Of a stretch of DNA of 64,000 bases, positions 22,623 through 48,087 are shown one piece after another (position 1 is the stretch's first letter; each line of letters starts with the position of its first letter). The DNA comes from Tritonibacter mobilis (GTDB lineage: Bacteria; Pseudomonadota; Alphaproteobacteria; Rhodobacterales; Rhodobacteraceae). The position numbers were made by a program, and so were the translations under genes. The DNA lies in NCBI RefSeq assembly GCF_001681715.1, contig NZ_LNWY01000012.1, forward strand, positions 1-64,000. Direction: 5' to 3'. A model generated the notes under the pieces. The model saw only the letters and a list, made by a program, of their open reading frames with translations. It was not told where the DNA came from and did not search any database.

Positions 22623-23075
22623 ATGTCCGGCGAAACCGACCTGATCAAGCTCTACTCCACCAAGATCCTCGCTCTTGCGGCGGATATCCCGCATCAGGGA
22701 CGGCTGGAACATGCCGATGCGACGGTAAAGCGCCGCTCGCCCCTGTGTGGATCAACTGTGACGGTGGATGTGGCGCTGGAGGATGGCAAAGTCGCGCGTT
22801 TTGCACAGGACGTCAAAGCCTGTGCGCTCGGGCAAGCCTCAGCCGCGGTTGTCGGCGCGGCGATCATCGGGCGCAGCACGGGTGAGGTTGAAACAGCGCG
22901 CGATCAGCTCAAAGCGATGCTGACCGAAGGCTGCCCTGCCCCGGATGCCCCATTTGAGGGACTCGAAGTCCTGATCCCGGCCCGGGAATTCAAGAACCGG
23001 CACGCGTCAATTATGCTGGCCTTAGAGGCCACGCTGGAGGCAATGCAGACCGCACAAAAGGCCGACTGCGCCTGA
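22623..23075 (+). CDS. Iron-sulfur cluster assembly scaffold-like protein (IscU/NifU N-terminal type)
   Basis: A 150-residue protein of the NifU-N family. Potential ligand Cys residues appear in RSPLCGSTVTV, DVKACALGQASA and LTEGCPAP, in the three positions used by IscU-type scaffolds. The start at 22623 follows AGGAACACG; the open frame reaches further upstream into the hisI promoter, but that part has no family similarity. No isc or suf partner is nearby. In Rhodobacteraceae this gene commonly sits near hisI. Scaffold or carrier activity is inferred from the cysteines. Confidence 0.88.
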   Translation: MSGETDLIKLYSTKILALAADIPHQGRLEHADATVKRRSPLCGSTVTVDVALEDGKVARFAQDVKACALGQASAAVVGAAIIGRSTGEVETARDQLKAMLTEGCPAPDAPFEGLEVLIPAREFKNRHASIMLALEATLEAMQTAQKADCA

Positions 23076-23115
23076 CCTGCCGCGGTGCCATTCTCTCCTA
23101 AACAGCAGTAAACAA

Positions 23116-23152
23116 GAAAAAACCGCCGCACATCCGGGCAGATGGCGGCGGT
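23116..23152 (-). terminator. Strong intrinsic terminator of the small-protein/RNA unit
   Basis: On the minus strand ACCGCCGCCATC pairs with GATG(T)GCGGCGGT, 12 pairs with a single bulge and a 6-base loop, followed by TTTTTTC. It is oriented to end transcription coming from the 40-residue protein gene. Confidence 0.92.
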
Positions 23153-23165
23153 AAGTCAAAGCACG

Positions 23166-23271
23166 GTCATGCGGGACCCGGGAGACACCAAACACCGGAG
23201 GGAAAACTCTGGTGCGGATCGAACAGGCAATCGATCCTTACGGGACTTGAGGCTGGTGTTCCCGGCATGAC
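23166..23271 (-). ncRNA. Candidate structured RNA (closed stem with two internal hairpins)
   Basis: About 106 bases fold into one compact unit, listed by plus-strand position. The closing stem pairs 23166-23171 with 23266-23271, then 23178-23190 with 23254-23265 (12 pairs, one bulged base). Inside are an 8-bp hairpin (23193-23200 with 23207-23214) and a 7-bp hairpin (23216-23222 with 23231-23237), plus about 16 unpaired bases. It lies between the stop of the 40-residue protein gene and a strong minus-strand terminator, so the likely transcript is minus strand. It could be a 3'-UTR-derived small RNA or an independent one. The bubble-and-stem layout faintly recalls 6S RNA but it is shorter. Structure is seen; function is unknown. 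Confidence 0.65.
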
Positions 23272-23319
23272 AGCACAAAGGAAACTGTGAACGGGTTACA
23301 AAAGGCGTGAAGACGTCGC

Positions 23320-23442
23320 TTAGATCAGGCCCGGCAGGTGCAGACCAACAACCAGCATCACAACCAGCGAGGCTGCGCCAACGGCATCCTGCAGCAGGGT
23401 GGACTGTGAATTGCGCAGTGCGGATTTGAATTGCGTAACCAT
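23320..23442 (-). CDS. Small membrane protein (40 residues)
   Basis: An ATG at 23442 with a strong AGGAGG ribosome site 7 bases upstream opens a 40-codon frame. Residues 1-20 are polar (MVTQFKSALRNSQSTLLQDA) and residues 21-40 form one hydrophobic helix rich in Val, Leu and Ala, ending LHLPGLI. I believe similar proteins occur widely in Rhodobacteraceae without an assigned role. A LexA-type box lies about 80 bases upstream on the same strand, and a structured RNA plus terminator follow. SOS-induced small membrane proteins that block division are known (SidA of Caulobacter); any such role here is inference. Confidence 0.75.
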   Translation of the reverse strand: MVTQFKSALRNSQSTLLQDAVGAASLVVMLVVGLHLPGLI

Positions 23443-23522
23443 CTGGAAACCTCCTCGATCTCTGTCATGCGTTCGTGACGCCTTGTTGTCCTTTTGTTCT
23501 CATTTTGCGCGAGTCGTGTAAA

Positions 23523-23557
23523 GAACTTTTTGAGAACATTTGCGAACAAAGTAGAAC
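23523..23557 (-). promoter_or_regulatory. LexA-type SOS box and phased GTTC repeats
   Basis: Read on the minus strand, GTTC-N7-GTTC (plus-strand GAAC at 23523 and 23534) matches the direct-repeat LexA site of alphaproteobacteria. Two more GAAC copies follow at 23544 and 23554 with 10-base spacing. The box is 52 bases past the recG stop and 81 bases upstream of the 40-residue protein start, so it should control the latter, not recG. Confidence 0.65.
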
Positions 23558-23588
23558 AAAGACAAGAGCGCCTTCCCGGAGGGGCAGA

Positions 23589-25679
23589 TTATCCCACTGA
23601 AATCAGTCGGATAGCCTCATCCTGACGCAACAGCCACAACAGCGTGCGCGCCGCGCGCCCCCGGTCACTGGTCAAATCCGGATCAGAGGTCATCAGGGCG
23701 CGTGCATCACTCTGGGCGATTGCCATCAGATCCGCTTGTCGTTCCAGATCCGCGATCCGGAAACGCGGCAGGCCGGATTGGGCGGTGCCGATGACATCCC
23801 CCGCGCCACGCATCTGAAGGTCTGTTTCGGCAATGACAAAACCATCCTCGCTCTCGCGCAGCACCTCAAGCCGCCTGCGCCCGCCCTCGGTGAGCGGTGG
23901 CTGATACATCAACAGACAGGTGGATTGAGCCGTACCGCGCCCGACACGTCCGCGCAGCTGGTGCAATTGCGCAAGGCCAAAGATTTCGGCACGCTCAATC
24001 ACCATGATGGAGGCATTGGGCACATTCACCCCCACCTCGATCACCGTCGTTGCGACCAGAACCCGGGTGCGCCCCTCCTGAAAAGCGGCCATGGCCGCGT
24101 CTTTTTCTGCCGGGGGCATCTGACCATGCACCAGCCCCACCACATCATCGCCCAGCACCGCCCGCAGGTGTTTGAACCGCTCATCGGCAGCGGTCAGATC
24201 CATGACCTCGGATTCTTCGACCAGCGGACAGACCCAGTAACACTGCCGTCCCTCGGCAATGGCGCGGCGCAGGTGGTCCACCACCTCGGACATACGTTCG
24301 GTGCTGAGGATCGCGGTCTTGATCGGTTTACGTCCCGGTGGCTTCTCGTCGAGGATCGAGACCTCCATATCGCCGTATTGGGTCAACGCCAGCGAGCGCG
24401 GGATCGGCGTCGCGGTCATCACCAGCACATCGGCACGCTTGCCCTTTTCGGCCAGTTCCATCCGTTGCCGCACACCAAAGCGGTGCTGTTCGTCGACAAT
24501 GACCAGCCGCAAATCGTCAAAGACAACATCCTGCTGAAACACCGCGTGGGTGCCGACAAGGATATGAATATCGCCACGTTGCAGCGCCTCGGTCTTGGCG
24601 CGCCGGTCCTTGCCCTTGTCACGCCCGGTCAGGATCTCAAGCACCACTCCCGCATCATCGGCCAGGGGTTTCAGCCCCTCAAGGTGTTGACGCGCAAGGA
24701 TTTCTGTCGGCGCCATCATCACACCCTGGCCACCAGCCTCCACGGCCACCAGCAGCGCCATAAAGGCCACCAGCGTCTTGCCCGCCCCGACATCGCCTTG
24801 CAGCAACCGGTTCATACGCCGCCCGGAGGCCATATCGGCGGTGATTTCTTCAATCGCGCGCCCCTGTGCGCCCGTGGGCTTATACGGCAGTGCAGAGAGC
24901 ACTTTGCTTTGCAGTTTTCCCGTGGCGACTGAGCTGCGCCCCGGCTGTTCACGCTCCATCGAGCGGGCAATGGCCAGCGTCAGTTGATGGGCGAACAACT
25001 CATCATAGGCAAGCCGGGCCCGCGACGGGGCTTCGGGCTCCAGATCGCTCAGGTGCCCCGGCGCATGGGCTGTGGCGATGGCCTCGTGCCAATCCGCCCA
25101 GCCCCGTTTGGTCTTATAGGATGCATCCATCCATTCGGTGAGTTCGGGCACCCTTTGCAAGGCGCTCTGCACCGCCTTGAACATGGTTTTCTGCGTGATG
25201 CCGTGGGTCAGGTGATACACCGGTTCGAAATCCGGAATATCGCCCGCCTCCTCCAGCGGCAGCATGTGATCCGGGTGGACCATCTGCGCCATGCCGTCGA
25301 ACAGTTCCAGCTTGCCCGAAACCACACGGCGGGACCCTTCCGGCAATTGCGCGGTCAGATAGCGGCTGCGCCCGTGGAAAAAGACCAGTTGAAACTCCGT
25401 TTCCTGATCCGCCACATCGATCCGGTAGGCCCCGCCCTTGTTGCGCGCGGGGCGATGGCGTCCGACCGTGATCTCAACCGTCGCCGTCGTAGGTAACTCA
25501 AGCCCTCGAATGGTCTCGCGCCGACGCCGATCCACAAGGCTATAGGGCAGAGAGAACAACAGATCCCGTGGTGCCGTGATCTGCAACTGTGCAAAGTGCT
25601 CGGCGATTTTCGGCCCGACACCTTGCAAAGTTTCTAATTCCGCAAAAAGCGGGAACAGTTGTTCCGGACGTCCGCTCAT
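23589..25679 (-). CDS. recG: ATP-dependent DNA helicase RecG
   Basis: Branch-migrating helicase that remodels stalled forks and recombination intermediates. The N-terminal wedge domain (OB fold, about 60-180) is followed by superfamily 2 motifs: Walker A GDVGAGKT, the DEQH box (VIVDEQHRFGVRQR) and motif VI region QLRGRVGRG. At 696 residues the length is normal. It starts 7 bases after the ligA stop, so ligA and recG form an operon in which both products act in DNA repair. Confidence 0.97.
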   Translation of the reverse strand: MSGRPEQLFPLFAELETLQGVGPKIAEHFAQLQITAPRDLLFSLPYSLVDRRRRETIRGLELPTTATVEITVGRHRPARNKGGAYRIDVADQETEFQLVFFHGRSRYLTAQLPEGSRRVVSGKLELFDGMAQMVHPDHMLPLEEAGDIPDFEPVYHLTHGITQKTMFKAVQSALQRVPELTEWMDASYKTKRGWADWHEAIATAHAPGHLSDLEPEAPSRARLAYDELFAHQLTLAIARSMEREQPGRSSVATGKLQSKVLSALPYKPTGAQGRAIEEITADMASGRRMNRLLQGDVGAGKTLVAFMALLVAVEAGGQGVMMAPTEILARQHLEGLKPLADDAGVVLEILTGRDKGKDRRAKTEALQRGDIHILVGTHAVFQQDVVFDDLRLVIVDEQHRFGVRQRMELAEKGKRADVLVMTATPIPRSLALTQYGDMEVSILDEKPPGRKPIKTAILSTERMSEVVDHLRRAIAEGRQCYWVCPLVEESEVMDLTAADERFKHLRAVLGDDVVGLVHGQMPPAEKDAAMAAFQEGRTRVLVATTVIEVGVNVPNASIMVIERAEIFGLAQLHQLRGRVGRGTAQSTCLLMYQPPLTEGGRRRLEVLRESEDGFVIAETDLQMRGAGDVIGTAQSGLPRFRIADLERQADLMAIAQSDARALMTSDPDLTSDRGRAARTLLWLLRQDEAIRLISVG

Positions 25680-44127: not shown

Positions 44128-44958
44128 ATGCCATTTGATCCAAACACCCATGGGCCGTTAGATGTAAGCCCGCTGCTGCGGCTTATGTCGGCTGGCAATT
44201 GGCAGATTGAGCTCGCGCATGAGCGCGACTGTCATCTGGTGATATGGGTGACACGTGGTCAGGGACGTATGCTGCTGGATGGCCAATGCCGGGGGTTTGG
44301 TCCGCACACCGCCATCTGCGTTCCTGCGCGCACTTTATTCTCGCTTGAGCTTGGCCGACAAAGCATCGGTCAGGTTCTCCAGATCGGCGAGGATATCCCC
44401 TGCGGCCTGCCAGATACGCCCATGCAGATCCGTATCAATGATATGCAGGAACAGGCCCGCATCAACTCCCTGTTTGATGCAGCACTGCGCGAACAGCAGG
44501 TGAACGACGACCATACCGCTCAGGCAATCAGAAGTTACGCCGACCTGATTGGGATTCACATGCAGCGTCTGTGGCAAACCGCCCCAGAAAACAGCAAACT
44601 TTCCGCGGCGCGCAAACTCTGCCGCGCCTACTGCGCGCGATTGGCCGAGGATAGCGAAGGTGCCTATAACATGGCCGGGCACGCAGCGGCACTGGGCGTC
44701 ACACCGACACATTTAACCCGTGTCTGCCGACAAGAGACTGGAAAGACCGCTGCCGCGTTGCTCACGGAACGCCAATTGCACGCCGCCCGAAGCCTTCTGA
44801 TCCGCACTTCGCTGCCGATGCGTGACATTGCACAAAGCCTCGGCTTTGGCAGCGCCGCCTATTTCACCCGGTTCATCACGCAGCACACAGGCAGCACACC
44901 GAGCGCTTTGCGCAAGAAAGCGCGCCGCCCAGCGACCAGCGCCTCCACGCATCACTGA
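44128..44958 (+). CDS. AraC family transcriptional regulator
   Basis: A 276-residue regulator. The N-terminal half is a cupin-like ligand-binding domain ([27 protein letters not shown]). The C-terminal half has the two AraC helix-turn-helix motifs: [20 protein letters not shown] and [19 protein letters not shown]. It lies immediately upstream of an ABC importer operon in the same direction, and a distinctive palindromic region separates them. Activation of that operon by this protein in response to the imported compound is the simplest model. Confidence 0.92.
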
Positions 44959-47034: not shown

Positions 47035-48087
47035 ATGGGACTATTCATATTGCGCCGCTCGGGCGTGATGATCATTACGGCGTTGTGCCTGACGTTCATC
47101 GTGTTCGTGATGACCAACCTCTACCCGAACCTCGAAAAGCTCGCCAAAACCGAGGGTAACTTCCGAATGTCGGACGAAGCCGTTGCAAGCTGGCTGGACA
47201 AGAATGGCTACGGCCAGCCGATGCTGGTCAAATATGGTCAATGGCTTGGTGTGGTGCCGGGGTGGCAACGCCTGAGCGATGAGGGAGTCACCGGGCGCTG
47301 TATTGATGGTGCCGTTTCAGAAGATGAGGCCGCGCAAGCCCCGCGTTTCTGCGGTATCCTGCAGGGCGATTGGGGGTACTCCACCCGATTTAAGACTGAT
47401 GTGAGCGAGATCATCCAGACCCGGCTTGGCAACACTGGCTATCTGATGATGTGGGTTTTGATCCTGATGGTGCCTTCGGCGCTCATTATTGGTGTGCTGG
47501 CGGGCATGCGCGAAGGCTCTGCCACCGATCGGTCGCTGTCAACGCTGTCCATCATGACCACCGCAACGCCGGAATATGTCTCTGGCGTGATCTTCATTGC
47601 GGTGTTCACCTCCTCCACCGTGGGGCTCAAATGGTTTAAAGGCACTGCCACCTCTGCGATGGAAAACCCGACGTTTGAGAACTTCTTCCTGCCGGTTCTG
47701 ACCATTGCACTTTATGGCATGGGGTATATCGCGCGCATGACACGCGCCTCGATGACCGAGGTGATGACCGCGCAATATATCCGTACCGCGCGCCTTAAGG
47801 GGGTGAGCTTTCCCAATATCGTCCTGAAGCACGCCCTGCGCAACGCGTTGATTGCCCCCTTTACGGTCATCATGTTGCAGTTCCCCTGGCTGCTGAACGG
47901 TGTGGTGATCGTCGAAAGCCTGTTCAATTACAAAGGTTTCGGCTGGTCGCTGGTAGAGGCTGCTAGCAACAATGATATTGAGCTGCTACTGGCGATCTCC
48001 GTTGTCTCTGTCGTCGTGGTTCTGCTGACGCAGCTGATTTCTGACATCGGCTACATCTTCCTGAACCCTCGCATTCGCATCTCATAA
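47035..48087 (+). CDS. ABC transporter permease (DppB/OppB type)
   Basis: A 350-residue inner-membrane permease of the dipeptide/oligopeptide/nickel class. The N-terminal helix (IITALCLTFIVFVMTNL) precedes a large periplasmic loop with a possible disulfide pair (Cys in TGRCIDG and RFCGIL). The core has five more helices. The cytoplasmic EAA loop contacting the ATPase is visible as YIRTARLKGVSFPNIVLKHALRN. It lies in an operon with the second permease 15 bases downstream. Confidence 0.93.
   Translation: MGLFILRRSGVMIITALCLTFIVFVMTNLYPNLEKLAKTEGNFRMSDEAVASWLDKNGYGQPMLVKYGQWLGVVPGWQRLSDEGVTGRCIDGAVSEDEAAQAPRFCGILQGDWGYSTRFKTDVSEIIQTRLGNTGYLMMWVLILMVPSALIIGVLAGMREGSATDRSLSTLSIMTTATPEYVSGVIFIAVFTSSTVGLKWFKGTATSAMENPTFENFFLPVLTIALYGMGYIARMTRASMTEVMTAQYIRTARLKGVSFPNIVLKHALRNALIAPFTVIMLQFPWLLNGVVIVESLFNYKGFGWSLVEAASNNDIELLLAISVVSVVVVLLTQLISDIGYIFLNPRIRIS

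Follow-up and report, generated by a model that had tools for sequence, protein, structure and literature searches.

A LexA-type box, a one-helix peptide gene and a structured RNA form a conserved unit beside recG in Rhodobacteraceae

In this study, we undertook a comparative analysis of a short minus-strand region in a stretch of 64,000 nucleotides from Tritonibacter mobilis (hereafter, the window) and found that a LexA-type box, a gene for a 40-residue membrane peptide and a structured RNA ending in a terminator make up one unit, which is adjacent to recG in most of the Rhodobacteraceae genomes searched and appears to be a component of the DNA-damage response that has gone uncharacterised. 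From sequence comparison, the unit itself, its conservation, the coding constraint on its frame, the pairing in its RNA and its independence from recG are established. We further propose, with a little more belief than doubt, that it is a tightly LexA-repressed, self-contained SOS unit with two outputs, a membrane peptide and an RNA that probably acts in trans. The observation behind the original prediction, which had been made from the window alone, is real and was understated.

The upstream neighbour of the unit is recG (23589..25679, minus strand), which the window sequence and the locus comparison place outside it. Behind recG on the minus strand follow, in order, the box, TTTACA, TGA-GAACAA, AGGAGG, the 40-codon frame, the folded RNA and the terminator. 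The box, GTTC-N7-GTTC (GTTCTCAAAAAGTTC), is present at 23523..23537, downstream of recG as the original prediction had it, and a third GTTC half-site stands six bases upstream of it at 23544..23547. Abutting the box is a putative -35 element, TTTACA (23517..23522), and 17 bases after it comes the hexamer of a putative extended -10 element, TG-A-GAACAA (23494..23502), which contains an inverted GTTC half-site; the promoter role we give to both relies on the consensus of the compared loci and, for the latter, on its fixed spacing. The Shine-Dalgarno sequence AGGAGG (23450..23455) precedes the 40-codon gene (23320..23442, stop included), whose ATG is at 23442 and whose TAA is at 23322-23320. Both the frame and its ribosome-binding site are therefore as originally described, and the gene does start near the box, although the ATG lies 80 rather than 81 bases after it. 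The structured RNA occupies 23118..23278, with a long closing stem (about 23276-23260 with 23183-23161) and a hairpin with a UUGCCUGU loop (about 23236-23215), and its final part is the anticipated strong intrinsic terminator, CCGCCGCC...GGCGG plus a T run (23117..23151), with the stem at about 23151-23123 and the T run extending to 23117.

The comparison sample comprised 110 loci drawn from the 262 family genomes with a peptide match, namely the 30 best-scoring loci and 80 chosen by hand from the matches listed, mostly in less fragmented assemblies, with the start codons of the 80 picked by a custom Shine-Dalgarno score. The loci represent 109 genera because two of them (L001 and L002) share one genus. 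When searched for within 200 bases, the exact box was found 69–110 bases before the start codon in 109 of the 110 loci, versus none for the reversed motif, none in a stretch inside recG and one in a downstream stretch of the same loci. Conservation of the box upstream of orthologues, a check proposed with the original prediction, is thus borne out. Three half-sites (GTTC-N6-GTTC-N7-GTTC) are present in 97 loci, TGn(G/A)AAC lies exactly 20 bases after the box in 101, and a consensus drawn from 109 loci reads GTTC-N6-GTTC-N7-GTTC-TTTACA-N14-TGAGAACAAA. We read TTTACA as the -35 and GAACAA, 17 bases away, as an extended -10 element; since the former is directly behind the box, LexA would sit against the -35. 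Our argument for the box rests on its position because the bare motif is no rarer in this genome than its reversed control (104 versus 170 matches, i.e., chance level), and the genome-wide count was accordingly dropped as evidence. Elsewhere in the window, a second exact GTTC-N7-GTTC occurs at 44491-44505 on the minus strand and is probably a chance match.

GTTC-N7-GTTC is the LexA motif of alphaproteobacteria (PMC3323433, PMC13384398), and in the same genome it is also found upstream of the recA and lexA matches. With lexA present, recA and lexA having the same type of box, and such a box conserved in orthologues at the putative promoter, the unit has the features of a LexA regulon member, and its sequence points to tight repression by LexA and induction by damage. 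Of the damage-responsive small-protein/RNA module originally envisaged, the module itself is upheld by the box, coding and RNA-pair comparisons, whereas the response to damage is what its operator suggests.

A single-sequence search identified the peptide in 262 of 394 family genomes, and a profile of 30 members had matches in 340 of 390 genomes of the order, covering 132 of 139 genera. Among the matches listed, each genome has one, except for a single genome with two. Nine of 385 genomes matched in a class-wide profile search, of which five are family members and four are marginal; the marginal matches were rejected as homologues beyond the family, three being inside frames of 290–495 residues and one in a 35-residue frame, and the search gave no convincing match outside the family. 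Searches with the peptide gave no match in Pfam, PHROGs or the PDB, nor among 72,556 records of plasmids and 50,697 of phages; in NCBIfam, the sole hits were from two of the 30 members to an unrelated model (best E 0.055).

The peptide is 34–45 residues long across the 110 loci, with 40 residues in 91 of them. As originally proposed, it has a single hydrophobic stretch: the best 19-residue Kyte-Doolittle mean is 2.05 in the window and at least 1.6 in 109 of the 110 loci, and the predicted structure is one helix spanning residues 2-39 (pLDDT 84, pTM 0.44). Seven residues (T15, D19, G22, L26, L34, H35 and P37) are invariant in the 30 members. The first 15 residues have a median net charge of one positive, and the last 12 are without lysine or arginine in all 110 loci. 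The peptide would insert in the membrane as a single helix, and the positive-inside rule would place its C-terminus outside because of the lack of positive residues there. Purifying selection on the frame is evident from two sets of sequences, which also settles a proposed check on its coding constraint. The first set took a single locus from each genome and kept the 91 of the 110 loci whose frame has 40 codons, the 19 loci of other lengths being excluded; dN/dS was 0.56, and 38 of 44 disjoint pairs were below 1. The second set consisted of the 149 frames that are unique among 166, for which dN/dS was 0.48 and 67 of 74 pairs were below 1. Pairs that were saturated or too close were excluded (1433/4095 and 3624/11026, respectively).

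Evidence for the RNA came from a covariance model (R1) built from 10 loci other than the window, to which the window RNA matched with 54.8 bits (E 2.7e-12). The structured element seen originally is therefore genuine, and no other convincing match occurs in its own genome, where the next two have 16.3 bits. Among 100 sources (the window standing in for L001, and L128-L132 and L134-L138 being excluded), the model matched 97. Of these, 84 scored at least 40 bits, 10 of them model seeds, and 13 scored 25–40 bits, a range in which the terminator supplies much of the score; L090, L092 and L115 had no match. A common layout emerged when selected sequences were folded one by one. The lead is UUUCUGCCUGCG and is followed by a long closing stem, which has an unpaired strand, (A/G)UCCCAC; inside are hairpins with the loops CUGUCCCAA, CUGCCUGUCC and UGCCUC, and the terminator comes last. 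The window RNA is a divergent version that retains the long stem and one UUGCCUGU hairpin. Folding z-scores had a median of -2.3 over 108 RNAs, 60% of which were below -2.

Conservation of the RNA pairs, likewise proposed for checking, was found in two alignments. RNA stretches were obtained from 107 of the 110 loci; filtering by motif and length retained 64, of which 40 entered alignment A2 and 10 entered alignment A3. In the fitted alignment (A4, all 100 rows, weak ones and three second matches included), double changes were present in 34 of 39 pairs (515 cells versus 119 in shuffles), counts that lean to the structure because it had been set by hand beforehand on 10 close sequences; the terminator is helix 9 of this alignment and has 99% of its cells paired. 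In the sequence-only alignment of 40 RNAs, for which 32 pairs were counted with the middle hairpins excluded, double changes were found in 24 pairs (104 cells versus 25.9), and sliding the partner strand abolished the covariation. RNAalifold on the first MAFFT alignment recovered the terminator only, as alignment gaps had broken the long stem.

One short motif, CUGYCY, recurs in the RNA at 3.29 copies per molecule versus 0.50 in shuffles, with at least three copies in 80 of 108 RNAs. The first CTGCC is at a median of 10 bases past the stop codon (105 of the 108 have one). Such repetition of a loop motif suggests several equal binding sites, either for a protein or for G-rich messages. In Rfam, positions 23000-23650 of the window had no match up to E 1, and 12 loci had none that reached the gathering score. 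To the extent covered by Rfam 15 and our literature search, the RNA family has no earlier description, although the supplement of PMC8632094 could contain it.

In the mechanism that we propose, which combines these sequence features with established SOS biology, LexA bound to the triple GTTC operator against the -35 would keep the promoter tightly off, and DNA damage would lead to cleavage of LexA and opening of the promoter. A single transcript would give rise to two products, the peptide and the 3′ structured RNA. The 40-residue peptide would enter the inner membrane with its N-terminus in, following the positive-inside rule, and by analogy with SidA would most likely slow division or envelope growth until repair is complete; perhaps it is a division brake. 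The RNA would present several copies of CUGYCY in unpaired parts and probably act in trans; it would either pair with G-rich messages or hold an RNA-binding protein. A tentative extension, to which we give only minor credence, is that the RNA is an SOS-triggered decoy, a junction whose C-rich CUGYCY loops capture either a class of G-rich messages or an RNA-binding protein. A single LexA-controlled transcript would then both brake the envelope, by way of the peptide, and rewire translation, by way of the RNA.

Of the other explanations, the one that survives best, though we think it doubtful, is that the peptide is the sole product and that the RNA serves, as a conserved 3′ UTR, to stabilise and end the message, with no role in trans. 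Consistent with this, the RNA begins just past the stop codon and finishes in a terminator, and two loci (L092 and L248) have kept the box and peptide while the structured RNA is missing, which means that the RNA is not always needed. However, a plain 3′ UTR needs neither a covarying long stem nor 3.3 copies of one loop motif, and the RNA accompanies the peptide in 97 of the 100 sources.

It is unlikely that the unit is instead a type I toxin-antitoxin system, in which an SOS toxin like TisB would make cells dormant by depolarising the membrane and an RNA would restrain the toxin. The small hydrophobic helix, the single net positive charge in its first 15 residues and the tight-looking LexA control would suit such a toxin. 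However, the RNA is on the same strand and in the same transcript as the peptide, and complementarity to the toxin message, expected of a type I antitoxin, was not found for this sense 3′ RNA. Its duplexes with its own leader and frame were weaker than those of shuffles (by a mean of +0.68 and +1.47 kcal/mol, respectively), and leaders with complementary motifs numbered 16 of 108, compared to 36 of 108 in shuffles. In addition, the unit is a single chromosomal copy kept across genera, with no plasmid or phage match. The duplex energies speak against an antitoxin role of the sense RNA and led us to reject control of the peptide in cis by its own RNA; the lack of pairing beyond shuffles fits a role in trans, which we consider probable.

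The possibility that the box serves recG, with the remainder being a tail of that gene, arises from the presence of the recG C-terminus upstream in 108 of the 110 loci and from a report of LexA regulation of recG in some alphaproteobacteria (PMC3323433). We regard it as very improbable, and rejected the box as recG's, since the box is behind recG and points away from it and since the recG of one genome (G034) has no box behind it, whereas the box, 40-residue peptide, RNA and terminator of that genome stand together elsewhere (L219, 1280-1650). On this sequence evidence the unit is independent of recG. The weakest alternative, a spurious frame beside a common motif, draws on the 104 bare motifs in the genome (themselves fewer than the reversed control) and is scarcely credible given the position of the box, the coding constraint, the covariation and the spread of the peptide over 340 of 390 genomes.

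Variants and losses of the unit were also identified. In the genus g24, seven of nine genomes read have the unit (L249, L250, L252, L253, L254, L256 and L257), in six of the seven as a variant with a peptide of ~31 residues, a short RNA and a different terminator but the box kept; L251 and L255 have no unit behind recG. The peptide and RNA have shrunk in the same genomes, which hints at a shared role. Lack of a peptide match did not always mean absence, as some of the genomes concerned have a diverged copy. The RNA model matched 16 of 26 genomes lacking a peptide match and had no match in 10, with some of the 16 matches, being weak and away from recG, taken as false. It fetched 22 loci from the 26 genomes, and the 12 that include recG all have a hydrophobic frame of 38–42 residues behind it, with a D-x-x-G core in 11 (L232 has E) and the exact box in 10. 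A second set, overlapping in part with this one, consisted of 17 recG loci (17 of 18 genomes were read, G014 being without a clear recG); the box and peptide were present in 13 of them and lacking in four, one of which has the unit elsewhere in its genome. Outside the family, any box within 450 bases was found at two of the 67 recG loci examined among 113 non-family matches listed; one is of the GTTC type and one of the GAAC type, and both were read as chance and rejected.

The apparent control of the unit and the architecture of its peptide resemble those of SidA, TisB and DinQ. SidA of Caulobacter crescentus is an SOS-induced inner-membrane protein of 29 residues that stops division through FtsW (PMC4211646). 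The Rhodobacteraceae peptide, a very small, predicted single-pass membrane protein with one helix behind a LexA-type box, is similar to SidA in size, build and box, the features compared, although at 40 residues it is longer. TisB and DinQ of E. coli are also SOS-induced single-helix membrane peptides, and the likeness to them lies in a small helical membrane peptide with SOS-type control. Their RNA partners (IstR-1 and AgrB, respectively) are antisense, whereas the RNA here belongs to the sense transcript, and its pairing to the leader and frame does not exceed that of shuffles. SgrS/SgrT is a dual-function RNA in which, as in this unit, a short frame precedes an RNA with its own conserved structure. 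The Rhodobacteraceae unit similarly has a frame under coding constraint in its predicted transcript, but has LexA-type control, and the action of its RNA is a proposed one. In CsrB and RsmZ, which are decoy RNAs, a GGA motif is repeated in several unpaired loops. The recurrence of one short motif over several unpaired loops is shared by the RNA described here, although its motif is CUGYCY rather than GGA and it is linked to a peptide gene. The HRC and uORFC motifs are comparative RNA finds from the same order, made in a Rhodobacterales genome, but the two treated in the main text of that study are at cco genes and cysS (PMC8632094), not at the recG unit. A literature search of article texts and abstracts found no earlier description of the unit.

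Few neighbours of recG are as steady as this unit in the Rhodobacteraceae, whose members are abundant in the sea and in soil, yet none of the protein and RNA families searched matches it. With it come a candidate checkpoint peptide for the Rhodobacteraceae, a conserved RNA family that is new, and an opportunity to test whether SOS control extends over a peptide and an RNA that share a promoter. How division is held after DNA damage in alphaproteobacteria beyond Caulobacter could be tested directly with one small deletion. Separately, another RNA was recognised in the window at 47664-47842 on the minus strand, where Rfam identified Cis52_sRNA (RF02647; 144.9 bits, E 2.3e-28), whose counterpart cis52 in R. 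pomeroyi is antisense to an oligo/dipeptide transporter permease (PMC4809877).
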